From the NCBI RefSeq assembly GCF_024171925.1, contig NZ_JAMTCO010000010.1, positions 121,136-185,135 on the forward strand: 64,000 nt of DNA. Reading direction: 5' to 3'. Each line of letters opens with the position of its first letter. Position 1 is the first letter of the stretch. Source of the DNA: Actinokineospora diospyrosa (GTDB lineage: Bacteria; Actinomycetota; Actinomycetes; Mycobacteriales; Pseudonocardiaceae). Of the stretch, positions 6,663 through 64,000 are shown one piece after another. The notes under the pieces were generated by a model. That model had not been told where the DNA came from and made no database searches. It was given only the letters and a program-made list of their open reading frames with translations. Position numbers and translations under genes: made by a program.

Positions 6663-7856
6663 TCAACTCCTCGACTTCTCGCCTGGCGCAAGCTCAGCAC
6701 GGACCGCTTGTCCGCGCAGCGCCGGGTCTCCCCCAGCCAACAGGACCACGATCGGTACGGCTACCAGTGCCGCCAAGAGATAAGAGTTACCTAGAAGCAC
6801 GTCGGCGGCCGTCCAGCTCAACTCGGTCTTGGCGCCACTAGGCACCATCCGGAACTGCCAACCGGTGAACACCACAACCAGCGCTAGCAGACTCCACTGC
6901 ATGTTCTTTGCGATGAAGTAACCGGCGAGGGGGACGACCCACACCCAGTGGTGTGTCCACGAGACGGGGCTGACCATCAGTCCAGCGACAGCGGTAACGA
7001 GCAGCGCACCGAGGTCGTCCCCGTCGCTGTGGAGACGGCGCACAACGATGGCAGCGAGGGCGAGAGTGACCAGAGCGGTTGTGGCGAACAGGATCAACGC
7101 CGCCTGGTCTTCACCGGTGAGCCGCTGAAGGATCCCGTTGAGCGACTGGTTGCCGATCCAGGAGTTCGTGGTGGCGTCGTTGCCGTCGACCAGTGCTTCA
7201 GTCCAGAACCGCACTGTGTCGCCCGGCAGGACTGCCGCGGCGGCGAGGTTGAGTAGCGCAAACGCGGCTAGAGCGCGTGTCGCGTCTGCCCATCGCCGAG
7301 TGAGTGCCAGGTGGGCAATGAAGATCAGCGGGGTGAGCTTGACTGCGGCAGCCACGCCAATCAGGACTCCGGCCCCCTTACGGCCCTTAAGCAGAAGCAC
7401 GTCCGCGACCACCATCGCCATGAGCAGCAGGTTGACCTGCCCTAGTCCTAGCGTGCGCCACACCGGTTCTAGCAGCAGGGTCGACAGCAGCAGCGCGCCA
7501 AACGGCCACCCAGCCCGCAGCTTCGCGGGCAAGGTTTCCCGCAGCACAAAGCCCAACGCGAGCGCGGAAAGCGCGGCAAGCACGCCCCACCCGAGCTGCG
7601 ACGGCAGCATCGTCAGCGGCAGGAACAACAACCCCGCGATAGGTGGGTAGGTGAAGGGCAAGGGGGGTGCCCACGATTCACCCGTGGTGAGCGGGGCATA
7701 GAGGGAGTCTCCGTGCAGAAGAGTCAGCGCCCCAGCCCGGTAGACCGAACTGTCGACACCTAGACCTCGACCCGTGAACCAGCAAGCGACAGCCAGCACG
7801 ACCAACCCGATCGCGACCGCTGACGCCGCGTGTGGAACCCGCCGCGCAACCCCCAT
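6663..7856 (-). CDS. GT87 family polyprenyl-phosphate mannosyltransferase
   Basis: A 397-residue integral membrane protein with about ten hydrophobic segments. The early lumenal loop carries GLGVDSSVYRAGA and then a SLYAPL / PFTYPPIAGLL block, the pattern of GT-C fold glycosyltransferase family 87 (alpha-1,2-mannosyltransferases such as PimE). Such enzymes use polyprenyl-phosphate mannose at the outer face of the membrane; Asp35 is the likely catalytic acid/base by analogy. It lies first in a probable three-gene run with the flavoprotein and the rRNA methyltransferase, with no obvious shared pathway. Confidence 0.82.
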   Translation of the reverse strand: MGVARRVPHAASAVAIGLVVLAVACWFTGRGLGVDSSVYRAGALTLLHGDSLYAPLTTGESWAPPLPFTYPPIAGLLFLPLTMLPSQLGWGVLAALSALALGFVLRETLPAKLRAGWPFGALLLSTLLLEPVWRTLGLGQVNLLLMAMVVADVLLLKGRKGAGVLIGVAAAVKLTPLIFIAHLALTRRWADATRALAAFALLNLAAAAVLPGDTVRFWTEALVDGNDATTNSWIGNQSLNGILQRLTGEDQAALILFATTALVTLALAAIVVRRLHSDGDDLGALLVTAVAGLMVSPVSWTHHWVWVVPLAGYFIAKNMQWSLLALVVVFTGWQFRMVPSGAKTELSWTAADVLLGNSYLLAALVAVPIVVLLAGGDPALRGQAVRAELAPGEKSRS

Positions 7857-49614: not shown

Positions 49615-50301
49615 ATGCTGCTGCTCATCCACGGCCACCCGTTCGACCGCACCATGTGGGACCCGCAACTCGCCCGCTTCGACGCGATCGCCCCGGACCT
49701 GCGCGGCTACGGCACCGCCGAACCCGCCTCCGGCGTGACCGCGATGAGCACGTTCGCCGATGACCTCGCCGCGCTGGCGCCGGACCGGGACCTGGTCCTC
49801 TGCGGCCTGTCGATGGGCGGCCAGATCGCGATGGAGTTCCACCGGCTGTACCCGGAGCGGGTGCGCGCGCTCATCCTCTGCGACACCACCGCCCGCGCGG
49901 AAACAGCGCAGTCGCGGCAAGAACGGCTCGACATGGCCGACCGCCTCAGCCGCGAAGGGATGGAGCCCTACGCCCGCGAGGTTCTATGGAAGATGGTCGC
50001 GCCTGGAGCTGATGACGCTGCCGAGCACGTATTGAAGATGATGCTGTCCGCGCCGCCCGAAGGTGCCGCAGCCGCTCAGCGCGGACGGGCGGACAGGCCC
50101 GACTACCGCGAGTCGTTGACCGCCCACCCGGTTCCCACCTTGGTCATCGTGGGCAGCGAGGATGCGTACACCCCGCTCGAGGAGGTCAAGCACATCCCGG
50201 CCACCCACCTCGTCGAGGTGAAAGGGGCCGCTCACCTGCCCAACCTCGAGCGACCGGACGAGTTCAACGGCGCCGTCGCGCGGTTCCTGGCCACGCTCTG
50301 A
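49615..50301 (+). CDS. alpha/beta hydrolase
   Basis: A 228-residue cytoplasmic alpha/beta hydrolase. Oxyanion HGHPFDRTMW, nucleophile GLSMGG, acid GSEDAYTP and catalytic His in GAAHLPNLERP are all present, so the triad is complete. The fold type fits small ester/lactone hydrolases (3-oxoadipate enol-lactonase-like). GGAGGA lies 5 bases before the ATG. Divergent from the MocR gene. Confidence 0.85.
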   Translation: MLLLIHGHPFDRTMWDPQLARFDAIAPDLRGYGTAEPASGVTAMSTFADDLAALAPDRDLVLCGLSMGGQIAMEFHRLYPERVRALILCDTTARAETAQSRQERLDMADRLSREGMEPYAREVLWKMVAPGADDAAEHVLKMMLSAPPEGAAAAQRGRADRPDYRESLTAHPVPTLVIVGSEDAYTPLEEVKHIPATHLVEVKGAAHLPNLERPDEFNGAVARFLATL

Positions 50302-50351
50302 GACGCTCATCTCGTTGTAGTGCGACAAAGCGCTTACCTACTGTCCGGTAC

Positions 50352-50897
50352 ATGGCGTTGGAACACGCGATCCTGGTCGCGTTGAGCGAGCAGGCGGGCA
50401 CCGGCTACGAGCTGGCCCGCCGGTTCGACCGGTCGGTCGGCTACTTCTGGCAGGCCACCCACCAGCAGATCTACCGCGTGCTCAACCGGATGGCCGAGGA
50501 CGGCTGGGTGAGCGCGGTGCACGTCGCGCAGACCGGGCGGCCGGACAAGAAGGTGTACTCGGTCGTCGACGCGGGCCGCGCGGAGCTGGCCAGGTGGCTC
50601 GGTGAGCAGGCACAACCCGCCCACCTGCGCGACGACCTGGCGGTGAAGATCCGCGGCGCCGGTCTTGGCGACGCGGGCGCGGTGCTGGCCGAGGTGCAGC
50701 GGCACCGCGAGCACCACGCGCGGCGGCTGGCGGTCTACGAGGTCATCGAGCGCACCGAGTTCCCCGAGCGGCACGCGCTGACCGGCACCCGGCTGCACCA
50801 GTACCTCACCCTGCGCGGCGGGATCACCACCGAACGCGGCCTGGTCGCCTGGTACGACGAGGTCAGCGCGGCCCTGCGGCGGGACGTGGCGAGCTGA
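50352..50897 (+). CDS. PadR family transcriptional regulator
   Basis: A 181-residue PadR/Vir-type regulator: N-terminal winged helix (about 1-85, GTGYELARRFDRSVGYFW and QIYRVLNRMAEDGWV) and a C-terminal helical dimer domain (Vir_act_alpha_C). It follows the hydrolase gene by 50 bp. Target genes and ligand unknown. The last 35 bp overlap the convergent Vsr gene. Confidence 0.88.
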   Translation: MALEHAILVALSEQAGTGYELARRFDRSVGYFWQATHQQIYRVLNRMAEDGWVSAVHVAQTGRPDKKVYSVVDAGRAELARWLGEQAQPAHLRDDLAVKIRGAGLGDAGAVLAEVQRHREHHARRLAVYEVIERTEFPERHALTGTRLHQYLTLRGGITTERGLVAWYDEVSAALRRDVAS

Positions 50898-51306
50898 GCG
50901 CGGCCACGACCCGCTCGCGGACCAGGGCGGCGGCGACCAGCGGGTCCTCGTGCTCCCAGACCCGCACGACCTGCCAGCCCGCGGCGGCGAGCCGGGCGTC
51001 GGTGTCGCGGTCGCGGCGGCGGTTGCCCTCGATCTTGTCCCGCCAGAACTCGGCGTTGCGCTTGGGCCACGTCGCGTGCTCGGGGCAGCCGTGCCAGAAG
51101 CAGCCGTCCACGAACACGGCGGTCTTGGCGCGGGAGAAGACGACATCCGCCTCTCTACGGACAGTGCGCACAGGGCGTTGATGCACCCGGTAGCGCAGGC
51201 CGAGAGCGTGCAGCGCTCTACGGAGCGCCATCTCGATCCCGGTGTCACGGGCCCGCTGCCTGCTCATCCGCTGCCGCACGGCCGCCGTCGACTCCACCGA
51301 CTCCAC
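50863..51306 (-). CDS. vsr: very short patch repair (Vsr) endonuclease
   Basis: A 147-residue Vsr-type DNA mismatch endonuclease, which nicks beside T:G mismatches made by deamination of 5-methylcytosine. Typical marks are RQRARDTGIEMALRRALHALGLRYR, catalytic Asp in EADVVF, FVDGCFWHGCPEH with zinc-binding Cys/His residues, and FWRDKI. A Dcm-like cytosine methylase normally accompanies Vsr but none is nearby. The 3' end overlaps padR. Confidence 0.9.
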   Translation of the reverse strand: MESVESTAAVRQRMSRQRARDTGIEMALRRALHALGLRYRVHQRPVRTVRREADVVFSRAKTAVFVDGCFWHGCPEHATWPKRNAEFWRDKIEGNRRRDRDTDARLAAAGWQVVRVWEHEDPLVAAALVRERVVAALSSPRPAAGPR

Positions 51307-51354
51307 CCAACCTCCCGCTCCAGCACCTGTTTCCGCAGGTCCGGATAAAGTTCC

Positions 51355-51385
51355 GTACCCCTACGGATACCGACCCTGATTGTTC
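51355..51385 (-). promoter_or_regulatory. shared 31-bp protease-regulon element, copy 1
   Basis: On the minus strand: GAACAATC, 13 bases, GTAGGGGTAC. The same element with the same spacing occurs at 58083-58113 and 61455-61485. The right half is an inverted repeat (CCGTA-GGGG-TACGG). It lies 90 bp before the secreted chymotrypsin-type protease gene and also just upstream of the divergent Vsr gene. Confidence 0.75.
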
Positions 51386-51474
51386 CTCACCGGGCGTCAC
51401 TCGAAAGTGACCTGCAGCGAACCGCCGCCGTCCCTGCCTAGAGGCGAGCGTTCCTGATCCGGAAAGGAACCATC

Positions 51475-53355
51475 GTGAAACGAACACCACGGTCCTGGGG
51501 TCTGATGGCTCTGGCCGCGGCCACGGTGTTGGTGCCCGTCGGCGCCACCATCGCGAATGCGGCGCAGTCGACCGCCGGTGCCCCGGCGAACGCCCCCGCG
51601 GCGAACTACTTGGGTGACACCGTCCCCGCCAACCTCGGCGATGCCACCCCGTCGTTCGTCGGCGGCACGGACGCCACCGTGAGCGAGTTCCCGGGCATCA
51701 TCGCGGGCATCCGCGCAGGAGGCACCCGTCCCCAGGGCCAGACCTGCACCGGTACCGTCGTCGCCCCGCGCAAGATCCTGATCGCCGCGCACTGCGCCGA
51801 CGCGGCGGGCGACAAGTCGTTCGTCTACGGCCTCGACGACCTCAAGGACTACAACAACGGATCCGGCACCGGGTTCGCTGTGAAGGCCGTCAGCTACAAG
51901 AAGCACCCGAAGTACGTCAACTTCGACCAGGGCTACGACGTCGCCGTCGTGACCGTCGACAAGGACATCGCGCTGAAGGGTGGCGCTGCGTACCCGGCGT
52001 TCGCCACCTCGGCCGACTCGGGTGGCGCTGCCCCCGGTAAGACCGCTCAGGGCTTCGGTTACGGCAAGAAGGACTTCAACGACAACTCCGCCGACGTCAC
52101 CCTCGACAAGGCGAGCCTGCCGATCGTCAACGGCGACTCGGTGTGCCAGGGCGTTGGCGCCGGCTTCAAGTCCGCTTACATGATCTGCGCCGGGTACTCC
52201 GACGGCCGGATCACGATCCTCCCCGGCGACAGCGGTGGCCCGCTGATCGTCAACAACAAGATCTACGGCGTCGCGTCGTGGAGCCGCTCGGACTTCAAGT
52301 GGTACAGCGTCTACGGCCGCCTCGACAACGAGATGGGCGACTGGGTCAAGTCGGAGGTCGGCACCGTCGACCCGCCGACCGGTGACTTCTCGCTGAGCGT
52401 GACCCCGAGCAGCGGTTCCGTGGCCGCGGGCAAGTACCTGTCGGCGACCGTCAACACCACCGCGGGCTCCGGTGGCGCCGAGAACGCCACCCTGTCCGCT
52501 TCCGGCCTGCCCAGCGGCGTGCAGGCGGTCTTCCAGCCGACCTCGGTCACCACCGGCGGTTCGGCCAAGCTGACCTTCGACGCGTCCGCCTCGGCGCCCA
52601 ACGGCACCTACGAGGTCACCATCACGGCGTCGACCTCCAGCGGCAAGACCGCGACCGGCAAGTACTCGCTCACCGTCACCGGTGGCGGCGAGCCGCCGGT
52701 CGGCGACTTCACCCTCTCGGCCTCGCCGAGCAGCGTCAAGGCCGCCAAGGGCAAGTACATCTCCACCACGATCAACTCCGCAGGTGGCAGCCGCGGCCAG
52801 AGCATCAACCTGACCGCGTCGGGTGTGCCCTCCGGTGTGAAGGCGGTCTTCCAGCCGACCTCGATCACCGCGGGCGGCTCGTCCAAGCTGACCCTCGACG
52901 TGTCCACCACCGCGGTGGCAGGCACCTCGAACATCACCGTGACCGGCACCGACGCCAACGGCAAGACGGCCACCACGACCGTCGCGCTGACCGTCGAGGG
53001 CACCACCGAGCCGCCGACCGGCGACGTCACCGTCACCGCCACCCCGTCCTCGGGTAGCGGCTGGGCGGGCCAGCTCGTGCAGACCTCGGTCAAGGCGAGC
53101 GGCGGGACCGGCAGCCTGCGGCTGACCGCGACCGGCGCCCCCACCGGCACCCAGGTCACGTTCAACCCGGCGACCATCGCCCAGAACGGCACCAGCAACG
53201 TCTGGTTCTTCACCAACTTCCAGACCCCGGTCGGCACCTACCCGATCACCATCACGGCCACCTCGGCCGACGGGAAGACCGGCAAGACCACGTTCACGCT
53301 GACCGTCACCCGCTTCGGGGCGTTCAACGCGGGCACCGCAAGGATCCCCAGCTGA
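51475..53355 (+). CDS. secreted chymotrypsin-family serine protease with Ig-like repeats
   Basis: A 626-residue exported protease. Signal peptide (1-30), propeptide (31-60), S1A domain (about 61-295) with activation site before FVGGTDATV and triad His106 (IAAHC), Asp155 (YDVAVV), Ser253 (PGDSGGPL). Three related Ig-like beta modules of about 95 residues follow (about 304-405, 410-505, 512-615), joined by Pro/Thr linkers starting PPxGD. These probably bind polymers or cell surfaces. GTG start with GGAAAGGA upstream. A U-tailed terminator follows. Confidence 0.9.
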   Translation: MKRTPRSWGLMALAAATVLVPVGATIANAAQSTAGAPANAPAANYLGDTVPANLGDATPSFVGGTDATVSEFPGIIAGIRAGGTRPQGQTCTGTVVAPRKILIAAHCADAAGDKSFVYGLDDLKDYNNGSGTGFAVKAVSYKKHPKYVNFDQGYDVAVVTVDKDIALKGGAAYPAFATSADSGGAAPGKTAQGFGYGKKDFNDNSADVTLDKASLPIVNGDSVCQGVGAGFKSAYMICAGYSDGRITILPGDSGGPLIVNNKIYGVASWSRSDFKWYSVYGRLDNEMGDWVKSEVGTVDPPTGDFSLSVTPSSGSVAAGKYLSATVNTTAGSGGAENATLSASGLPSGVQAVFQPTSVTTGGSAKLTFDASASAPNGTYEVTITASTSSGKTATGKYSLTVTGGGEPPVGDFTLSASPSSVKAAKGKYISTTINSAGGSRGQSINLTASGVPSGVKAVFQPTSITAGGSSKLTLDVSTTAVAGTSNITVTGTDANGKTATTTVALTVEGTTEPPTGDVTVTATPSSGSGWAGQLVQTSVKASGGTGSLRLTATGAPTGTQVTFNPATIAQNGTSNVWFFTNFQTPVGTYPITITATSADGKTGKTTFTLTVTRFGAFNAGTARIPS

Positions 53356-53373
53356 TCACCTGACCGGCACGGA

Positions 53374-53400
53374 CGGCAGGCCCCCGCCGGGGGCCTGCCG
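53374..53400 (+). terminator. intrinsic terminator with T-rich tail
   Basis: A perfect 12-bp stem (53374-53385 with 53389-53400), 3-base loop, followed by TTCTTGCCGTTTTGCCGTTT. One of the few terminators here with a clear T-rich tail. Confidence 0.93.
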
Positions 53401-53434
53401 TTCTTGCCGTTTTGCCGTTTGAGTGGGAGGACCA

Positions 53435-54352
53435 ATGCAGCCATTCCGGATGAGCGACCCAGTGCCGCTGGAGACGTTCCCGACCGTGCTCTCCGGCGCG
53501 ATCGAGCGCAGCGGGCTGAGCCTGGAGCACCTGCAGCGCAAGCTCGCCAACGAGGGCATCCGGGTCAGCCTGTCGACCCTGAGCTACTGGCGCCGGGGCA
53601 GGACCCGGCCCGAGCGCCCGGAGTCGCTGCGGGCGGTGGAGGTCATCGAGGAGGTGCTGAAGCTGCCGCACGGGTACCTGGTGGCGCTGCTGGGGCCGCG
53701 CAAGCCGCGCGGGCGCTGGGTTGCCCGGGGCGGCCTGGTGCGGCCGCACGAGACGTTGTGGGACAGCACCTCTGGGTTGGCCCCGGTGCTGTCGGAACTG
53801 GCCGAGCCCGCGCCGGGTGAGCTGACGTACCTGCACGTGCACGACCAGCACTACCTGGACCACAACGGGCGGGACGTGCGGACCAAGGTGCGCATGCTCG
53901 TCCGGTCCGAGGTGGACAGACTGCGGTCGATGGTCGTGCTGCACCGCGCCGAGGAGCACGACCGGGCGCTGCCCGCGGTGCTGACCGGGTCCGGCTGCGC
54001 CGTCGGCCGCGTGCGCCCGGTGCCGTCGAGCCGGTTCACGGTGGCGGAGGTGCTGTTCGACCGGTCGCTGTCGGCCGGGCAGACGGCGATCTTCGAGTAC
54101 GAGGTGCGGTGGTTCGCCCAGGGCAGGTCGACCCGGTTCTCCCGGGGATCGCGGCGTGCTTTCCGCGACTACCTGGCCGAGGTCACCTTCCACCCGACGG
54201 CCCTACCCACGTCCTGCTTCGCTTACGCGCAAGAGGCGGCGGACGAGCCCGAGGTGCACCGGGAGACGTTGGAACCGGGCTCTTACGGCGGTGTGCACAC
54301 CACGGTGCAGGCGTCGGAGGCGGCCATTCATGGCATCCGGTGGACGTGGTGA
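53435..54352 (+). CDS. helix-turn-helix protein of unknown role
   Basis: A 305-residue protein with an N-terminal XRE-like helix-turn-helix (about 15-70, SLEHLQRKLANEGIRVSLSTLSYWRRGR) and a 220-residue C-terminal domain of mixed alpha/beta pattern that I do not recognise (REAFRD-like RRAFRDYLAEVTFHP near the end). Widely seen in actinomycetes as a putative regulator. GGGAGG lies five bases before the ATG at 53435. Lies between the protease and subtilisin genes. Confidence 0.75.
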   Translation: MQPFRMSDPVPLETFPTVLSGAIERSGLSLEHLQRKLANEGIRVSLSTLSYWRRGRTRPERPESLRAVEVIEEVLKLPHGYLVALLGPRKPRGRWVARGGLVRPHETLWDSTSGLAPVLSELAEPAPGELTYLHVHDQHYLDHNGRDVRTKVRMLVRSEVDRLRSMVVLHRAEEHDRALPAVLTGSGCAVGRVRPVPSSRFTVAEVLFDRSLSAGQTAIFEYEVRWFAQGRSTRFSRGSRRAFRDYLAEVTFHPTALPTSCFAYAQEAADEPEVHRETLEPGSYGGVHTTVQASEAAIHGIRWTW

Positions 54353-54354
54353 TC

Positions 54355-54407
54355 ACAGCGCCGATGGCATCCCGGGCCTAAGAGTCCGTGGATGCCATCG
54401 GCGCTGT
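54355..54407. terminator. 18-bp inverted repeat after the HTH gene
   Basis: A perfect 18-bp inverted repeat (54355-54372 with 54390-54407), loop 17 bases, extendable by four bp with a one-base bulge, starting 3 bp after the stop codon. Probable terminator, but unusually long and without a T tail. Confidence 0.7.
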
Positions 54408-54410
54408 TGT

Positions 54411-54475
54411 GACTGACAGCTAGAACCTCGACTGACAGCTAGAACCTTGACTGACAGCTAGAACCTTGACAGCTA
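54411..54475. repeat. tandem 19-bp repeats
   Basis: Three head-to-tail copies of GACTGACAGCTAGAACCTY at 54411-54429, 54430-54448 and 54449-54467, identical except for the last base of copy one, then a partial copy GACAGCTA at 54468-54475. The array starts 3 bp after the 18-bp inverted repeat, between two convergent genes. No replication protein is near. Confidence 0.92.
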
Positions 54476-54578
54476 TGCCGCTGGGGTTCTGATTCCCGTG
54501 CCATCTCTGGGGTGTGATCGAGAAGCACGGTGAGTTCCACAAGCCAGGCCAGGGACACAATGCTCCTGGCACGAGGAA

Positions 54579-54610
54579 AGGCCCCGGAGCTGCACCAGCC
54601 TCCGGGGCCT
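54579..54610 (-). terminator. subtilisin gene terminator
   Basis: A perfect 10-bp stem (54579-54588 with 54601-54610), loop 12 bases, followed on the minus strand by TTCCTC. It lies 20 bp beyond the stop codon of the subtilisin gene at 54630. Confidence 0.82.
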
Positions 54611-54629
54611 CTCTTAGCTCGATCAACCC

Positions 54630-56213
54630 TTAGACAGTCAGGGTCCAGGTGTCGATGTTGCCGGTGTCGTAGGTGTAGATGTCGGTGACCTGGAGCTTCC
54701 ACGTGCCGTTGCGGTTCTCCGCGGAGGCGTCGACCGTGAAGGTCTGGTGGATGCCGGTGGCCGAGCTCGTGCCACCCGCGCGCTGCAGGCTGTAGGCCTG
54801 CCCGGACGGGCCGATGAGCAGGACGTTGAGGTCGCCGGTGTAGGTGTGGTTGATGTCGACCTTCACCGAGGTGGTGGTCGGCGCCTTGCCGGTGCAGTTG
54901 GCGATGGTGACCGAAGAGGACACCGCCGAGCCGCCGTCGGGGATGTTGACGTCGTCACCGTTGGTGCCGGGGCCGCAGGTGGGGTCCGGGTCGGGGCCGG
55001 GGCCCCCGGTGATGAAGCCGCTGTAGAGGAGCTTGTTCGGGGAGCCCGAACCGGGGTTGGTGACCTTGCCGCTGGTGGCGTTGTTCACCAGCGCGTCGCG
55101 CAGCGCCTGCGGGCTGGCCGACGGGTTGGCCGACAGGTACAGCGCCGCGACGCCCGCGACGTGCGGGGTGGCCATCGAGGTGCCGGACATGTTGGTGGCG
55201 CTACCGGTCAGCGACAGCGACGTGATGTTGTCACCGGGGGCGAAGATGTCGGTGCACGTGCCGTAGTTGGAGAACGAGGCGCGCGCGTCGTTGGACGAGG
55301 TCGCGTTGACCGTGATCAGCGCGGCGACCTTGGCCGGACCGGTCGAGCAGGCGTCGGTCGAGCTGTTGCCCGAGGCGACCGCCATCTGCACGCCGGAGTT
55401 GACCATGCCCGCGAGGGCGTCGTTGCCCAGGTCGGCGGTGTCGAAGGTCCACGAGGCGTTGACCACCGCGGGCTTCTGCGCGTTGGCGGTGATCCACTCG
55501 ATCGCCTTGACACCGGCGGAGTCCGGGCCGTTGCCGGTGCAGCTGGTGCCGAGCATGCGGACCGAGACCAGCTTGACCTTCTTGGCCACGCCGTAGGTCT
55601 TGGAGCCGATGGTGCCCGAGACGTGCGTGCCGTGCCCGGAGCAGTCCTGGCCGTTCTGGCCGTCCTCGATGAAGTCGGCGCCGACGGAGGCGCGGCCCTC
55701 GAACTCGGCCAGGCCGGTCTTGATGCCGGTGTCGGTGACGTAGACGGTCACGTTCGACGCGCCGCCGCTGGGGTAGTTGTACTTCTTGTCCAGCGGCAGG
55801 TTCGCCTGGTCGACGCGGTCGAGGCCCCAGGTGGGGTTGTCCTGGACGTCGAGCGCCTTGGCGGTGCCGTCCTGGTAGACCTTCTTCACCGCCGGGTCGG
55901 CGGCGAGCTGCCTGGCCTTGGTGTCGCTCAGGCCCTTGACCTGGAAGCCCTGCATGGACTTGGAGAACACGTAGTCCAGGTTGCCGCCGTACTTCTGCAC
56001 CAGGGCGCTGGAAGCGGCCTGGATGCTGGCGGCGGACGCGGCGGCGGTCGGCTTGAGCGAGACGATGAAGCTGTTGCCCGCCGCGGGCTGCTTGGCCCGC
56101 ACGAAATCGGCTTCGGCGGCGGTCGCCGGGGTGGCCACGGCCACCAGGGCAGCGGTCACCGCCGCCGCGCCGAGCGCCGCGAGCACGACTCGCCCGCGAG
56201 TGGATCGTTGCAT
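54630..56213 (-). CDS. secreted subtilisin-family protease with P domain (paralogue 1)
   Basis: A 527-residue S8 protease: signal peptide (1-33), I9 inhibitor propeptide (about 45-120), catalytic domain with Asp161 (VTDTGI), His194 (GHGTHVSG), oxyanion Asn283 and Ser346 (GTSMATPHVAG), Pro/Gly linker, and a C-terminal P domain (about 415-527, DINHTYTGDL and NGTWKLQVTD). The substrate-binding strand that normally reads S-L-G-G is SWTF here, unlike its neighbour. It follows paralogue 2 on the same strand but a strong hairpin lies between them. ATG at 56213. Confidence 0.92.
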   Translation of the reverse strand: MQRSTRGRVVLAALGAAAVTAALVAVATPATAAEADFVRAKQPAAGNSFIVSLKPTAAASAASIQAASSALVQKYGGNLDYVFSKSMQGFQVKGLSDTKARQLAADPAVKKVYQDGTAKALDVQDNPTWGLDRVDQANLPLDKKYNYPSGGASNVTVYVTDTGIKTGLAEFEGRASVGADFIEDGQNGQDCSGHGTHVSGTIGSKTYGVAKKVKLVSVRMLGTSCTGNGPDSAGVKAIEWITANAQKPAVVNASWTFDTADLGNDALAGMVNSGVQMAVASGNSSTDACSTGPAKVAALITVNATSSNDARASFSNYGTCTDIFAPGDNITSLSLTGSATNMSGTSMATPHVAGVAALYLSANPSASPQALRDALVNNATSGKVTNPGSGSPNKLLYSGFITGGPGPDPDPTCGPGTNGDDVNIPDGGSAVSSSVTIANCTGKAPTTTSVKVDINHTYTGDLNVLLIGPSGQAYSLQRAGGTSSATGIHQTFTVDASAENRNGTWKLQVTDIYTYDTGNIDTWTLTV

Positions 56214-56285
56214 GATGAGGAGGTCCTTCCACGATGGTCGACAGCCGTGCGCACACGGCCGAACAGGGTGTTCGCCCTTCATGGA

Positions 56286-56330
56286 CCGGGCACCCGGCGC
56301 TTCGGGTCGCACCGTGCGCCGGGTGCCCGG
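56286..56330 (-). terminator. hairpin between the two subtilisin genes
   Basis: A perfect 15-bp inverted repeat (56286-56300 with 56316-56330), loop 15 bases, 44 bp after the stop of paralogue 2. It implies that paralogue 1 has its own promoter in the 72 bp that remain. Confidence 0.85.
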
Positions 56331-56373
56331 GGTCGCGCTGCCGCCACCGGGTAGGGGCGGCCAACCGGATCCC

Positions 56374-57966
56374 TTAGAAGGTCAGGGTCCAGGTGTCGAT
56401 GGTGCCGACGTCGTAGGTCATCACGTCGGTGACCTGGAGCTTCCAGGTCCCGTTGCGGTTCTCCGCGGAGGCGTCGACGGTGAAGGTCTCGTGGATGCCG
56501 GAGGCGGAGCTGGCGCCACGGGCCTTCTTCAGGTTGTAGGTCGCGCCGGACGGGCCGATCAGGTCGACGACCAGGTCACCGGTGTAGGTGTGGTTGATGT
56601 CGACCTTGACCTTGGTTCCGGTCGAGGCCTTGCCGGTGCAGTTGGCGACCGTCACCGGGGAGTTCACCGCGGTGCTGGTGTCCGGGATGGACACGTCGGC
56701 GCCGTTGGTCACCGCGTCGCAGGTGCCCGGCTCGGGGTCGGGGTTGCCGCCGCCGATGAAGCTGACGTTGAGCAGCTTGTTGGGCGAGCCCTTGAGGTCG
56801 GTGATCTTGCCGGAGGTGGCGTTGTTCACCAGCGCGTCGCGGACCTGCTGCGGGGTGGCCGAGGGGTTGGCCGACAGGTAGAGCGCCGCGGCACCGGCCA
56901 CGTGCGGGGTGGCCATCGAGGTGCCGTTCATGGTGGCGGTGCTGCCACCGTTCTTGGTGGAGAGGATGGCCGAGCCGGGCGCGAAGATGTCCAGGCAGGT
57001 GCCGTAGTTGGACTCCAGCGAACCGGCGGTCCAGATGGAGCGCTTGTCGGCGTTGTCGCTGGCGCCGACGGTGATCGCCTCGGGCACGCGCGCCGGGCTG
57101 GTGTTGCAGGCGTCGCCCGCGTTGTTGCCCGCGGCGAGCGCGAAGGTCACGCCAGCGGAGATGCCGCGCTTGATCGCGTTGTCCACCGAGGTGTCCGCGC
57201 CGCCGCCGAGGCTCATGTTGGCGACAGCGGGCTTCTTGGCGTTCTGCGCGACCCAGTCGATGCCCTTGATGATCACCGAGTAGGCGCCGTTGCCGGAGCA
57301 GTCGAGCACCCGGACCGCGACCAGGTTGACCTTCTTGGCCACGCCGTAGGTCTTCGAGCCGACGGTGCCCGCCACGTGCGTGCCGTGGCCCTGGCAGTCG
57401 GAGGCGTCGGCGTCGTTGTCGATGAAGTCGTAGCCGTCCTTGGCGCGACCCTCGAACTCGGTGTGCGCCTTGTAGATGCCGGTGTCCAGGATGTACGCGG
57501 TCACGTTGGAGGCGGTGTTCGCGTAGGTGTACTTCTGGTCCAGCGGCAGGTTCGCCTGGTCGATCCGGTCCAGACCCCAGGTCGGGTTGGTCTGCGTGTC
57601 CGACATCCGGGCGACGCCGTCCTGCTGGACGTAGGCGACCGACGGGTCGGCCGCGAGCCGCTTGGCCGCCGCCTCGTCCAACTTCACCGCGAAGCCGCGC
57701 AGGGACGCGACGTAGGTGTTGCTGACCTTGCCGCCGTGCTTGCGGGCCAGGTCGAGCGCCTTGGCGTTGGTGGTCGGGACGTCGGAGGCGCCGTCCTTGA
57801 ACACCACGATGTAGCTACCCGCGATGGGCTGCGCGCTGCTCAGGATCGAGCCGGTCGCCTGCTGGGCCGCCGCTGGGCTGGTCACCGCGGCCACGATGGC
57901 CACGGCGGTCGCGCCTGCGGCCACCCCGGCTGCGACGACCCGCCGGGTCTTGCGATCAAGTCGCAT
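56374..57966 (-). CDS. secreted subtilisin-family protease with P domain (paralogue 2)
   Basis: A 530-residue S8 protease with the same build as its neighbour: signal peptide (1-34), I9 propeptide (about 48-120), catalytic domain with Asp161 (ILDTGI), His194 (GHGTHVAG), substrate strand ANMSLGG (normal), Asn281 and Ser350 (NGTSMATPHVAG), then a linker and P domain (about 417-530). Catalytic residues sit at almost identical positions in both paralogues, so they stem from a tandem duplication. ATG at 57966 with GGAG upstream. Copy 2 of the shared 31-bp element lies 117 bp upstream. Confidence 0.93.
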   Translation of the reverse strand: MRLDRKTRRVVAAGVAAGATAVAIVAAVTSPAAAQQATGSILSSAQPIAGSYIVVFKDGASDVPTTNAKALDLARKHGGKVSNTYVASLRGFAVKLDEAAAKRLAADPSVAYVQQDGVARMSDTQTNPTWGLDRIDQANLPLDQKYTYANTASNVTAYILDTGIYKAHTEFEGRAKDGYDFIDNDADASDCQGHGTHVAGTVGSKTYGVAKKVNLVAVRVLDCSGNGAYSVIIKGIDWVAQNAKKPAVANMSLGGGADTSVDNAIKRGISAGVTFALAAGNNAGDACNTSPARVPEAITVGASDNADKRSIWTAGSLESNYGTCLDIFAPGSAILSTKNGGSTATMNGTSMATPHVAGAAALYLSANPSATPQQVRDALVNNATSGKITDLKGSPNKLLNVSFIGGGNPDPEPGTCDAVTNGADVSIPDTSTAVNSPVTVANCTGKASTGTKVKVDINHTYTGDLVVDLIGPSGATYNLKKARGASSASGIHETFTVDASAENRNGTWKLQVTDVMTYDVGTIDTWTLTF

Positions 57967-58082
57967 CTGGGCTTCTCCATTCCGCTCCTCCGGGTGGTGG
58001 ACACCACCCGGGGGTGTGGCTGCCTGGCAGGGTTGGTAACTGACAGCCACTTGCGGATCACCATCGAGGGGCGCGGCAAGAC

Positions 58083-58113
58083 GAACAATCCGGATATCGG
58101 TACGTAGGGATAC
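58083..58113 (+). promoter_or_regulatory. shared 31-bp protease-regulon element, copy 2
   Basis: GAACAATC, 13 bases, GTAGGGATAC. It aligns without gaps to the copy at 61455-61485 over 36 bases, with further identity in the spacer (CGGTA at the same place). It lies in the divergent region between subtilisin paralogue 2 and the LAL regulator gene. Confidence 0.78.
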
Positions 58114-58238
58114 CCGTCTTTCACCTAAGATCAACTTCTCAGTCCGTGACATCCTGGAGTTTCAGATCACCGCTGGGCCGCCTAGGCTCGCCAAAACCCC
58201 ACCGGGTGCGGTAGCGGACACGTGGGTTGGGAGGGTGG

Positions 58239-61148
58239 ATGAGCCGGACACCGAGGCCGAACACGCGGCGCCCCGACGCCACCGGACTGATGCGGACCAG
58301 CTCGCCGGTCCTGGTCGGGCGCGGCGACCAACTCGGCGCCCTGGTGGCCGCGGTGCCGAGGCAGCCAGCCGTGATCATGATCGAGGGCGAGGCGGGCGTC
58401 GGGAAGTCGCGGCTGGTGCGCGAACTGCTCGACTCCGAACTGGGTCCGATGGCCGTCCTCATGGGCTACTGCCAGCCGGTCGGCGAACCGTTCCCGTACG
58501 GGGCGGTGCTGGAGGCGCTGCGCGACGCGACAGACCGGCTCACCAGGGGCCACCCGCGGCTGAGCCCGGTGGCCGGGGTGCTCGGCCCGCTGCTGCCCGA
58601 GCTCGCCGAGTACCTGCCGCCGCCGCCCGCGCCGACCGGGGACCCGCGCACCGAGCGGCACCGGCTGTTCCGCGCCATGCGCGAGGTGATCAGCGTGCTC
58701 GGGCCGGTGCTGCTGGTCGTGGAGGACCTGCACTGGGCCGACGACGGTTCCCGCCAGCTGCTGCGGTTCCTGATGGGCGACCCGCCGCTCAACCTGTCCA
58801 TTGTGGTCACTTACCGGCGCGAGGACGTGCCGGGCGGCGTCCCCTTGGGATCGGCCTACCGGCCGCCGAGCGGCATCACCAGCGTGCTGCTCGAGCTCGG
58901 CCCGCTCGACGTCGACGAGGTGCGGGCGCTGACCTCGGCGATCTTGGACGAAGAGGCGGTCTCCGCCGAGTTCGCCGCGAAGCTGCACGAGCGCACCGCG
59001 GGCATCCCGTTCGTGGTCGAGGAGACGCTGCGGGCGCTGCGCAACCCGGCGGGCGCTGTGCACGCCGACGGCGCGACCGCCCGGCGGCTGCTGGACAACG
59101 TGGACGTCCCGGTACTGCTGCGCGACGCCATGGCCGAGCGACTGGCAGCGCTCCCGACGACCGCGACCCGACTCGCCCAAGCCGCCGCAGTGCTCGGTGT
59201 GCCCGCCCCGGCGGAGCTGCTCGGCGAGGTCGCCGCGATCGGCGAGACCCGCCTGCGGGCCGCGCTGACGCACGCGCTCAGCGGGCACGTGCTGCACGAG
59301 GTCGACTCCGGCCGCTACGGGTTCCGGCACGCGCTGGCCCAGCAGGCCGTCTACGACACCCTCAGCGGCCCGGACCGCCAGCAGCTGCACAACCGGGCCA
59401 TCGAGGCCCTGGACCAGGTCGAGCCGCGCCCCTTGGTGCAGCTGGCCGAGCACAGCGAACGCGCGGGCCGCACGGCGGCGTGGCTGCACTACGGCGAGGC
59501 CGCGGCCGACCGGGCCGCCGAGGTCGGTGACGCCGCGACGGCGACCGCGCTGCTGCAACGGCTGCTGGTCGAGCCGACGGTGCCCGCCGCGGACGTGGAC
59601 CGGCTGGCGATCAAGCTGGGCCAGGTCGCGCACCTGGGCCTTGACCAGCACGACCCGACCGAGGCGCTGGAGCGGCTGCTGTCGGACCGGCGGCTGTCGA
59701 TCTCCGCGCGCGGCGAGGTCCGGCTCTACCGCGGGCTGCTGCTGATCCGCCAGGCGGGCGGGGTCGAGGAGGCCCGCTCGGAGATCGAGATGGCCATCGC
59801 GGACCTGGTCGAGCGCCCGGACCTGGCCGCCAAGGGCGCCGCGGTGCTGGGCCAGCCGTTCATGGGGATGACCCCGATGAGCGAGTTCATGCTGTGGCTC
59901 GACCGCACCGACCGCTACCGCGACGCCACCGACGACGTCGAGCTGAAGATCTCGCTGCAGGCCAACGAGATGGGCTCCAAGCTGCACACCGGCGACCCGT
60001 CGGTGCTGGCCAACCTGGACCGGCTGCCCGACACCGCGTCCACCCCCGGCGAGCAGCGGCAGCTGGCCAGGGCGTACTGCAACCTGGCCGACGCGTGCAC
60101 CTCGACCGGGCACTTCAAGCTGTGCGGCGACCTGCTGCGCAGCGGGCTGCGCTTCGCGGCCGAGTGCGGGGCGCCGTTCGTGGTGAGCACCGCGCGCGCG
60201 ACCAAGGCCCGGCTGGACTGGCTGACCGGCGAGTGGGACGGGCTCGCCGAGCGCGCTGGCAGGCTCCTCGACGAGTACCGGGACCTGTTCCCGGTGGCCA
60301 GCGAGCTGTGCCTGGTGCTCGGGTCGCTGGCGATGGCCCGCGGCGAGTGGGCTGAGGCGACCAGCTACCTGACCGAGACCGGGGCGTTCGCGCCGGAGGA
60401 GGCCATCGCGCCGGTGGCCATCGCGGGCTGCGCGGCGCTGGCCTGGACGATGCTCTCGCAGGACGAGGTCACCCGGGCCTGCGTGGACGTCGACCGGGGC
60501 ATCGAGATCGTGCGCGGCAAGGGCGTCTGGGTGTGGGCGACGGAGCTGGGCCCGGTGGCGGTCGCGACGTTCCTGGCCGCGGGCCGGGAGATGGACGCGG
60601 AGAACCTGATCGAGGACATCGCGACGGGCATCGAGGGCCGGGACGCGCCGATGGCGGTCGCCGCGCTCGCGCAGTGCCGCGGCAGGCTCGCCGAGGCCCG
60701 CGGCCAACTCGACGTGGCGGTGTCGCACTACCGCGAGTCGGTGGACCGCTACGAGCGGCTGCCCGCGCCGTACTTCGCCGCGATGGTGGCCGAGCGGGAG
60801 GCGATCTGCCTGCTGCCCAGCGAGAACGACAAGGCGACCGAGATCCTCTCGGCGCTGGTGGACGCGTTCGACTCGCTCGGCGCGACCCGGGACGCGGCCA
60901 GGTGCAGGCACCTGCTGCGCGGCATGGGCGGCGGCAAGCCGTCGCGCCGGGGCCGCCGCGGCTACGGCAACGAGCTGTCCCCGCGCGAGCAGGAGGTGGC
61001 CAGGCTGCTGGCGGCCGGGCACACCAACCGCGAGATCGCCGACGTGCTCTTCCTGTCCCCGCGCACGGTCGAGCAGCACGCCGCCCGGGTGCTGCGCAAA
61101 CTCGGTGTCTCCTCCCGAGCCGAACTCCAAGCCGAGGACCTGGGCTAG
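58239..61148 (+). CDS. LAL-type LuxR family transcriptional regulator
   Basis: A 969-residue large ATP-binding LuxR regulator: N-terminal AAA/NACHT-like ATPase (Walker A GEAGVGKSR near residue 50, Walker B LLVVEDLHWAD near 165), long TPR-like helical middle (about 370-890) and a C-terminal LuxR helix-turn-helix (about 905-965, LSPREQEVARLLAAGHTNREIADVLFLSPRTVEQH). LAL proteins are activators that respond to inducers. Its place among protease genes and beside a shared upstream element makes it a candidate activator of them; this is inference. ATG at 58239 after GGGAGGG; a GTG four codons upstream is possible. Confidence 0.9.
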   Translation: MSRTPRPNTRRPDATGLMRTSSPVLVGRGDQLGALVAAVPRQPAVIMIEGEAGVGKSRLVRELLDSELGPMAVLMGYCQPVGEPFPYGAVLEALRDATDRLTRGHPRLSPVAGVLGPLLPELAEYLPPPPAPTGDPRTERHRLFRAMREVISVLGPVLLVVEDLHWADDGSRQLLRFLMGDPPLNLSIVVTYRREDVPGGVPLGSAYRPPSGITSVLLELGPLDVDEVRALTSAILDEEAVSAEFAAKLHERTAGIPFVVEETLRALRNPAGAVHADGATARRLLDNVDVPVLLRDAMAERLAALPTTATRLAQAAAVLGVPAPAELLGEVAAIGETRLRAALTHALSGHVLHEVDSGRYGFRHALAQQAVYDTLSGPDRQQLHNRAIEALDQVEPRPLVQLAEHSERAGRTAAWLHYGEAAADRAAEVGDAATATALLQRLLVEPTVPAADVDRLAIKLGQVAHLGLDQHDPTEALERLLSDRRLSISARGEVRLYRGLLLIRQAGGVEEARSEIEMAIADLVERPDLAAKGAAVLGQPFMGMTPMSEFMLWLDRTDRYRDATDDVELKISLQANEMGSKLHTGDPSVLANLDRLPDTASTPGEQRQLARAYCNLADACTSTGHFKLCGDLLRSGLRFAAECGAPFVVSTARATKARLDWLTGEWDGLAERAGRLLDEYRDLFPVASELCLVLGSLAMARGEWAEATSYLTETGAFAPEEAIAPVAIAGCAALAWTMLSQDEVTRACVDVDRGIEIVRGKGVWVWATELGPVAVATFLAAGREMDAENLIEDIATGIEGRDAPMAVAALAQCRGRLAEARGQLDVAVSHYRESVDRYERLPAPYFAAMVAEREAICLLPSENDKATEILSALVDAFDSLGATRDAARCRHLLRGMGGGKPSRRGRRGYGNELSPREQEVARLLAAGHTNREIADVLFLSPRTVEQHAARVLRKLGVSSRAELQAEDLG

Positions 61149-61169
61149 AGCGCTAGAAGCCCCGCGAAC

Positions 61170-61207
61170 ACGAGAAGGACCGTCCGGGGATGGACGGTCC
61201 TTCTCGT
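61170..61207 (+). terminator. LAL gene terminator
   Basis: A perfect 16-bp inverted repeat (61170-61185 with 61192-61207), loop 6 bases, 21 bp after the stop codon. Confidence 0.9.
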
Positions 61208-61454
61208 CGGAACCAGCGGCTGGCGAGCGGCCCCCTGCATCAAAGGACGTTCGCCGAACCGCACCAGGCGGTGCCGAGCGCCGGGTGGGCGCCGCGGTCC
61301 CGGGGTGCGTGGTTCGAGTGACCACGGAGCCGGAACAACCCCGGGCGGGGGAGAGACGAGGGCGTGGGCGCCGCTCCCCCGACTTCCCGAGGTTCGCCCG
61401 TCGGGCCGGTGGGCCCTTCGTGCTTGGGAGAAGCGTGCCGGGGGCGGCGCGGCA
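61208..61454. other. non-coding region ahead of the carboxypeptidase promoter
   Basis: About 250 bp without a gene I can support, part of a 556-bp gap before the carboxypeptidase start. I looked for riboswitch hallmarks and saw none. The 31-bp shared element lies at its right edge. Confidence 0.5.
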
Positions 61455-61485
61455 GAACAATCGAGGCACCGGTAGGTAGGGATAC
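61455..61485 (+). promoter_or_regulatory. shared 31-bp protease-regulon element, copy 3
   Basis: GAACAATC, 13 bases, GTAGGGATAC, where the right half is the inverted repeat AGGTA-GGGA-TACCT. It lies 220 bp before the carboxypeptidase start codon in the same orientation as the gene. Confidence 0.78.
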
Positions 61486-61704
61486 CTATCTATTGACCTG
61501 GGCCGATGGTAATCGACTGGGAAATAACCGGTAACGGAGAACCACCTCCGCAGCCTTGTGGCGCGTGAAGCGGCCGGGTCACCATCCAACTGCACCACTG
61601 TGCGTCCTGGTCGTGAGGGCACCTTCGGGTTCGTCCGGGGCAGGCAGCGGACAACCTCATACTCACCTCCAGTGCCCCCGGGCACTCCTTGCAGGAGGCA
61701 ACGC

Positions 61705-63369
61705 GTGAAACGCAAACGCCTATCGGTCGCGGTCGGGGCGGTAGCCGCCCTTGCCGTGGTCTTGTCATCATCGCCCGGCGCCACGGCGCGGCCCGACGCG
61801 GCCGCGAGCCGCACCTCGGCCGAGTACGCGGTCATCGGGGTCAAGACCCACCAGGAGCGGTCTTCCATCGCCAAGACCGGCGCCGCCGTCAACGGCGTCG
61901 AGGACAGCAGGCTGATGATCACCGCGACCCCGGCCGAGGTCGCCAAGATCCGCCAGCTCGGCTACCGGGTGGACGCCCAGGACACCGCCGCGATCACCGC
62001 CGACCGGGGCGCGGCGGCACCGGCGGACTTCCCCAGCGCCGACGCGAACTACCACAACTACGCCGAGATGACCGCGGTCATCAACAAGGCGGTCACCGAC
62101 CACCCCGGCATCATCACCAAGCAGGTCGTCGGCAAGACCTACGAGAACCGCGACATCTTCGCGATCAAGATCTCGGACAACGCCGCGACCGACGAGGACG
62201 AGCCCGAGGTGCTGTTCACCGCGCACCAGCACGCGCGCGAGCACCTGACCGTCGAGATGGCGGTGTACCTGATCAACCTGCTGACCGACAGCTACACCAC
62301 CGACGCCAAGATCAAGGGCCTCGTCGACAGCCGGGAGATCTGGATCATCCCGGACGTCAACCCCGACGGCGGCGAGTTCGACATCAGCAGCGGCTCCTAC
62401 CGCAGCTGGCGCAAGAACCGGCAGCCGAACTCCGGTTCGTCCAACGTCGGCACCGACCTCAACCGCAACTGGGACTACAAGTGGGGCTGCTGCAACGGTT
62501 CCTCGGGTTCCACCAGCAGTGAGACCTACCGCGGCCCGTCCGCGGCGTCGGCGCCCGAGGTCCGCGCGCTGCAGAACTTCGTGAGCAGCCGGATCGTCGG
62601 CGGCAAGCAGCAGATCAGCGTGGGCATCGACTTCCACACCTACTCCGAGCTGGTGCTCTGGCCCTACGGCTGGACCTACGACGACACCGCCCCCGGCCTG
62701 ACCGCCGAGGACCAGCGGGTGTTCTCCACCATCGGCCGGGCCATGGCGGCGAAGAACAACTACACCCCCGAGCAGTCCTCGGACCTGTACATCACCGACG
62801 GGTCGATCGACGACTACCTGTGGGGCGTGCACAAGATCTACGGCTACACCTTCGAGATGTACCCGACCGGCACCGCCGGTGGCGGCTTCTACCCGCCCGA
62901 CGAGGTCATCAGCCGGGAGACCGCGCGCAACAAGGAGGCCGTCCTCCTGCTGCTCGACTACGCCGACTGCCCGAAGCGCTCGATCGGCGGGACCTGCGGC
63001 ACCACGCCGCCGGACCCGGGTGGCAAGGTCTTCGAGAACACCGCCGACGTGCAGATCCCGGACGCGGGCGCGGCGATCACCAGCGACATCGCGGTGACCG
63101 GCGTGACCGGCAACGCCCCGGCCACGCTGAAGGTCGACGTCAACATCGTGCACACCTACCGCGGCGACCTGGTCATCGACCTGGTGGCCCCGGACGGTTC
63201 GGCCTACCGGTTGAAGAACTCCTCGACCAGCGACTCGGCCGACAACGTGATCGCCACGTACACGGTGAACGCCTCGACCGAGGTGGCCAACGGGACCTGG
63301 AAGCTCAAGGTCCAGGACACCTACCGGCAGGACACCGGCTACATCAACAGCTGGAAGCTCACCTTCTGA
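61705..63369 (+). CDS. secreted M14 zinc carboxypeptidase with P domain
   Basis: A 554-residue exported carboxypeptidase: signal peptide (1-28), propeptide (about 30-110), M14 domain (about 115-420) with zinc ligands His176 and Glu179 (HAREH) and His311 (DFHTYSE), substrate Arg254 in LNRNW, catalytic Glu384 (YTFEMYP), and a P domain (about 441-554, [11 protein letters not shown] and [10 protein letters not shown]). The P domain is homologous to those of both subtilisins. GTG at 61705 follows AGGAGG by 6 bases, excluding longer in-frame starts. Confidence 0.93.

Positions 63370-64000
<631 letters not shown>

Follow-up and report, generated by a model that had tools for sequence, protein, structure and literature searches.

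The window analyzed here, a stretch of 64,000 nucleotides of the Actinokineospora diospyrosa genome, contains a cluster of protease genes: a trypsin-type protease (TRYP), two subtilisins (SUB1 and SUB2), and an M14 carboxypeptidase. An XRE-like gene and a gene for a large regulator, LAL, lie among them, and three copies of a 31-bp element stand between the genes (Table 1). LAL matches the Pfam families AAA_16 (residues 25-188, 81.9 bits against a cut-off of 32.6) and GerE (64.4 bits, cut-off 23.5), and its TPR_2 match (19.8 bits) is below the cut-off of 27. The XRE-like gene, scanned as 53432-54352, matched no Pfam or NCBIfam family. A gene for a Vsr-type mismatch endonuclease (50863-51306, minus strand) begins on the opposite strand at a distance of 48 bp from box 1, and this adjacency of Vsr gene and box is seen again in six loci of other genomes (L022, L026, L035, L036, L049, and L057).

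Table 1. Coordinates of the protease region, counted from the first nucleotide of the window
Feature	Position	Strand	Remarks
A-rich tract AAAG upstream of box 1	51347..51350	+	kept across sites
Box 1, toward TRYP: GTACCCCTAC-N13-GATTGTTC	51355..51385	+	minus-strand copy of the original prediction; putative −35 TTGTTC at 51380-51385
Putative −10 of box 1, GAAAGT	51403..51408	+	17 bp after TTGTTC
TRYP, trypsin-type (S1) protease	51475..53355	+	Pfam Trypsin, E 3.6e-27; probably secreted, judged by eye from the N-terminus
XRE-like gene	53435..54352	+	label from HTH-like N-terminus, by eye
SUB1, subtilisin	54630..56213	-	same strand as SUB2, 160 bp downstream of it; Pfam
SUB2, subtilisin with inhibitor propeptide and P-domain	56374..57966	-	Pfam Peptidase_S8, E 1.2e-44
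Putative −10 of box 2, GATGGT	58060..58065	-	17 bp after TTGTTC
Box 2, toward SUB2: GTATCCCTAC-N13-GATTGTTC	58083..58113	-	putative −35 at 58083-58088
LAL regulator, AAA_16 ATPase and GerE/LuxR HTH	58239..61148	+	candidate activator; Pfam, co-occurrence
GerE HTH of LAL, residues 912-963	60972..61127	+	codon of P941 at 61059-61061
CACGCT at the −10 position of box 3	61432..61437	-	weak, no GANNGT
Box 3, near the M14 gene	61455..61485	-	reads away from M14
M14 carboxypeptidase with P-domain	61705..63369	+	Pfam Peptidase_M14, E 2.1e-67

The element was originally predicted as GAACAATC-N13-GTAGGGRTAC at 51355-51385 (minus strand), 58083-58113, and 61455-61485 (both plus strand). All three copies are exact, the spacer is 13 in each, and the right block is indeed an inverted repeat (GTA-GGGR-TAC). 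The claim that such a recurrence is beyond chance agrees with 100 shuffles of the window, in which the expected number of exact copies was 0.00 and the largest 0. A search of the window that tolerated up to three mismatches added no copy to the three (chance mean 0.02, largest 1). An exact scan of the 8.11-Mb genome found the same three and no fourth, so that the copies are not scattered at random. Allowing up to three mismatches in the whole genome gave five further forward/reverse matches versus 3 for a reversed control pattern; the best is a 1-mismatch copy at C18:106610, and the other four are weaker. One 13-bit match to the box matrix at 6734-6764 of the window (minus strand) is away from the proteases and probably due to chance.

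The letters and places of the prediction stood, but its reading direction did not, because the reverse complement faces two of the three proteases. Read toward the protease, the box is GTAYCCCTAC-N13-GATTGTTC, and the GAACAATC block becomes the −35 end (TTGTTC). The third copy is near the M14 gene as described but points away from it. The copy between SUB2 and LAL is located where it was placed, and we assign it to the SUB2 protease. This assignment follows from four loci with a non-divergent LAL homologue (L030, L039, L051, and L123), in which the box keeps its orientation and its place in front of the protease. SUB1 has no box of its own above 4 bits in the box-matrix scan and is possibly co-transcribed with SUB2.

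Searching 84,980 species, one genome each, we found 50 stretches with the exact element. By genus name, 36 of the 50 belong to the Pseudonocardiaceae, of which we take Lentzea, Actinokineospora, Saccharothrix, Actinophytocola, Kibdelosporangium, and Amycolatopsis to be members; other genera include Kribbella, Streptomyces, Streptosporangium, Sphaerimonospora, and Actinopolyspora. Boxes above 20 bits numbered 127 in 110 loci, five of which had none at this level (L011, L118, L189, L196, and L197). In tblastn searches, where the SUB2 label stands for any subtilisin like SUB1 or SUB2, 109 of the 127 boxes were followed by a homologue of SUB2, TRYP, or XRE whose projected start was −36 to 177 bp away. 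The loci from the exact scan contributed 49 of 62 boxes (subtilisin 25, trypsin 24, XRE 0) and those of the relatives 60 of 65 (subtilisin 40, trypsin 14, XRE 6), the two sets having some species in common. The XRE homologues stand directly behind the box in L097, L100, L124, L191, L192, and L193. In other genomes, XRE-like homologues adjoin TRYP or follow a box directly; a further XRE-like gene is at 1973-2854 of L148.

No SUB2, TRYP, or XRE homologue was found downstream of the remaining 18 boxes. Six of these are M14-side copies (L013, L024, L032, L034, L040, and L130), one is cut by the end of its locus (L019), and the others are in L017, L109, L025 (second site), L028, L033, L037, L038, L056, L125, L126, and L190. 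The boxes at 5422-5452 of L017 (Saccharothrix carnea) and 5027-5057 of L109, a genome of the family, have the same neighbours and are conserved although a protease does not follow. Judged by eye, this box points antisense into the 3' end of an apparent ATPase-type anti-sigma gene.

To describe the box in detail, we compiled a table of 41 non-redundant exact sites from 60 scan sites and the 3 window sites by removing near-duplicates. The exact matches in L011 (a proteobacterial bin) and L033 were left out as probable chance matches, since their spacer and flanks do not fit. The 13-bp spacer is constrained, with A at position 13 in 41/41 sites and C at positions 20-22 in 76-88%. The box is preceded at 5-8 bp by an A-rich tract, and GANNGTG follows 17 bp downstream of TTGTTC. 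In this −10-like box, A occupies position 2 in 93% and T position 6 in 90% of the sites. The search pattern of the exact scan did not include position 13, the A tract, or GANNGTG. The fuller layout toward the protease is AAAG-N4-GTAYCCCTACSKA-...-CCNKGATTGTTC-N17-GANNGTG. Among 35 non-redundant boxes of relatives, which were not blind to the −10 region because the model used to find them (R1) had included it, GANNGT occurs in 25, at offset 17 in 16 and at offset 18 in 9, and at no other offset between 10 and 25. A canonical −10, TANNNT, was found in 0 of the 35. From these patterns we infer a −35 at TTGTTC and a poor −10 at GANNGT. The layout resembles a promoter with these two elements, preceded by a putative regulator site reaching about −60, and the box most likely makes up the upstream half of a protease promoter that depends on an activator. 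If the −35, −10, and start are as assigned here, the spacing of 17-18 bp in these 25 of 35 boxes would be compatible with a class II activator site, one that abuts or overlaps the −35.

The distribution of the box follows that of LAL. Two models were scanned over 150 genomes of the family: R1, made from 35 sites by sequence only, and R2, made from 63 sites partly found with R1. As R1 was built from exact matches and R2 partly from R1 matches, the two scans are not independent. R1 boxes (E<=0.01) occurred in 36 genomes and R2 boxes (E<=1e-3) in 39; a LAL homologue (E<=1e-40) occurred in 49, and these include all 36 and all 39 box genomes. At the same thresholds, none of the 101 LAL-less genomes has a box, and 74 of them retain a SUB2-like protease (E<=1e-60). 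Ten of the 49 LAL genomes lack a box at E<=1e-3. Fisher's p for the co-occurrence is 5e-27, a value that ignores shared ancestry. For the 93 R2 boxes at E<=1e-3, the distance to a LAL homologue is at most 500 bp in 40 cases, at most 3 kb in 55, and at most 10 kb in 68; the remaining 25 are more distant or on a different contig, but they too belong to genomes that have LAL. For R2 matches at E 0.001-0.075, the separation between LAL and other genomes is gone (49 listed, 23 in LAL genomes and 26 in others), which looks like what chance would give. Three genomes, G136, G007, and G021, also have a poorer best SUB2 match than members of their genus that carry the box; modules may therefore be gained and lost as a whole. 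In a sample of 394 genomes of the class, 9 had R1 boxes at E<=0.01, mostly weak matches outside the family. Only 3 of the 394 had R2 boxes at E<=1e-3, namely our genome, one of the same genus, and one of another family; all three have a LAL homologue, which is present in 50 of the 394 overall. This co-occurrence suggests that LAL is probably the regulator of the box.

Some further boxes in the A. diospyrosa genome also lie near relatives of LAL. The R2 scan ranks the three window boxes first, followed by C1:474389 (E 2.4e-6) and C1:609011 (E 3.6e-4), and the next match has E 0.057. Both C1 boxes adjoin LAL paralogues (44% and 39% identity) and are upstream of a subtilisin and a trypsin paralogue. 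There are two weaker boxes: that at C4:430.6k (18.3 bits) is before a subtilisin paralogue and adjoins another LAL paralogue, and that at C18:106.6k (24.2 bits) is before an ORF with an Ig-like match and adjoins an XRE paralogue. In a reversed-sequence control (423 kb over both strands), one match exceeded 12 bits and none 15. The region C4:421-432 kb (L146) is a second array, with two LAL paralogues, two subtilisins, and one trypsin; the 18.3-bit box is the one box found in it.

To inspect the covariation of LAL and the box, we took the 51 LAL proteins that have a box at most 600 bp away, reduced them to 47 by removing near-duplicates, and compared all LAL columns with all box positions, using a detection matrix masked at positions 22, 23, and 25. 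Mutual information over all pairs was dominated by nearly invariant columns, so we used per-position rankings only. Residue 941 of LAL, which alignments to VraR and GerE place at the start of the recognition helix, is the highest-ranking of the 969 columns for box positions 23 and 12, but not for the other four positions whose rankings were listed (4, 13, 22, and 25). The LAL tree shows just two changes of this residue, too few to claim significance for the covariation. A tree-based sign test had 1-2 independent pairs and no power. Proteins with R or K at 941 go with C23 in 22/22 and G12 in 22/22 cases, and those with P or T go with G or T23 in 24/25 and T12 in 22/25. Positions 12 and 23 are 11 bp apart, about one helical turn, which fits the expectation for two protomers. 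The TRYP and M14 boxes in P-type genomes break the rule (G12/T23 and T12/C23).

The M14-side copy is on the strand reading away from M14 in 7/7 aligned loci, and no forward-orientation box for M14 was found in these 7. In L137, from another family, a weak box faces an M14 homologue. Immediately after the reversed box in its reading direction, at 61330-61390 of the window (minus strand), is a nested hairpin, CCTCGGG..CGGGGGAG..CTCCCCCG..CCCGAGG. It is kept in L013, L032, L034, and L024, and in L034 two pairs of the inner helix are preserved via double changes. The overall covariation term is unfavourable (+3.28 kcal/mol), and the stability relative to shuffles varies (z −1.0, −2.7, −3.8, and +0.2). 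The hairpin is a possible small RNA or terminator. A structured RNA of a known family at the element was rejected, as Rfam gave one chance-level match in 50000-64000 (E 0.87), which is not at the element.

The comparisons between genomes establish the box as conserved, oriented, placed upstream of proteases, tied to GANNGT, and limited to LAL genomes at the thresholds used. The proposal of a protease-regulon operator or promoter with LAL as candidate regulator is supported by them, and no comparison that we ran contradicts it. The element is a real regulon box, and we consider it fairly probable that it belongs to a familiar type, the LuxR/LAL activator site, here in promoters of secreted proteases. 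The box would then combine an activator-binding region with the −35 region. Since the putative −10, GANNGT, is a poor one, the promoter would need help. LAL, a STAND-type ATPase with a GerE HTH, would bind the box when an inducer is present. The box positions covarying with residue 941 would be centred near −43.5, which we take to be a class II activator position of the LuxR/MalT-like kind. From there, LAL may attract RNA polymerase and increase the expression of several secreted proteases at once. The direct targets in the window would be TRYP and SUB2, and SUB1 might be reached by read-through.

The high conservation of GATTGTTC, among the best conserved parts of the box, and the count of GANNGT (25) against TANNNT (0) in the 35 boxes of relatives would also suit the promoter of an alternative sigma factor, with GATTGTTC as its −35 and GANNGTG as its −10, and no activator site. 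We regard this as unlikely. Conservation extends to GTAYCCCTAC and to the A tract, which are 16-25 and 30-33 bp upstream of TTGTTC, respectively, whereas the reach of a sigma factor ends short of these distances, and the box tracks LAL homologues. It is the position of the box, and only that, which points to activation rather than repression by LAL. A repressor relieved by inducer, or one acting on its own gene, could be imagined in Lentzea loci such as L012, where the box is 27 bp from the LAL start and could block LAL transcription. However, the box is upstream of the putative −35 and overlaps only this element, a typical place for an activator, and it persists where LAL is not divergent; repression therefore appears quite improbable to us.

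We give still less credence to binding by another regulator of the same genomes, for example an XRE-like or AdpA-like protein. XRE homologues do follow 6 of the 65 boxes of relatives, but tblastn detects an XRE homologue in only 6 of 53 loci, each of up to 8 kb. For the AdpA consensus, TGGCSNGWWY, we counted 9 matches in the window against 8.25 expected by chance and none in the three promoter regions, and on these counts we rejected an AdpA regulon. In favour of such a regulator, one report describes control of a subtilisin by the AdpA-like APASM_1021 in Actinosynnema pretiosum (PMC7356834).

With the box read as a LAL activator site, the protein-induced proteases of Lentzea and Amycolatopsis that degrade PLA, as presented in a review (PMC6930877), may be its physiological setting. 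There, silk fibroin raised the PLA-degrading activity of Amycolatopsis orientalis from 0 to 450 U/mL, and Lentzea waywayandensis reached 96 U/mL with elastin versus 0 without (PMC6930877). In the genome record named L. waywayandensis DSM 44232, boxes precede a subtilisin (L012) and a trypsin homologue (L046); a link of these genes to PLA degradation is our inference. A wider scheme, which we hold to be doubtful, is that LAL senses extracellular protein-breakdown products and turns on the secreted-protease set via the box, being the missing switch of the silk-, elastin-, and gelatin-induced PLA-degrading serine proteases of Lentzea and Amycolatopsis, and that the reversed M14-side box drives a small structured RNA. 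For the induction of proteases in Pseudonocardiaceae, the analysis provides a list of targets together with a putative operator and its candidate activator. Among the literature matches listed, from a coverage that leaves out most subscription literature, neither 10-letter box string is present and neither the box nor a LAL-protease regulon is described.

The maltose regulon shares with this locus a regulator made of a large ATPase and a C-terminal GerE HTH. MalT is the archetype of LAL/STAND activators, and its boxes adjoin the −35 of several catabolic promoters. The MalT box, GGGGAKGAGG, is not seen by eye in the three elements, and the LAL targets are proteases. LAL as a MalT orthologue was rejected, as the NCBIfam MalT model gives 21.6 bits against a cut-off of 537, in the HTH part only. 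The HTH of LAL also matches the VraR, GerE, NarL, and DevR chains in the PDB, and TACCCCT inside box 1 fits the NarL heptamer, TACYYMT. Boxes 2 and 3 (TATCCCT) break this heptamer, and LAL, unlike this type of regulator, has no receiver domain in Pfam and carries an ATPase-type sensor. The AdpA motif, as noted, is absent from these promoters. AdpA is another regulator with another binding motif, and it shares with our locus the transcriptional control of secreted subtilisins in an actinomycete (PMC7356834). SCO6993 is likewise of the actinomycete LAL family and binds the promoters of its target genes, but it has 606 aa and is a negative regulator of antibiotic production, and the accessible part of its description does not name a protease regulon (PMC9628970).
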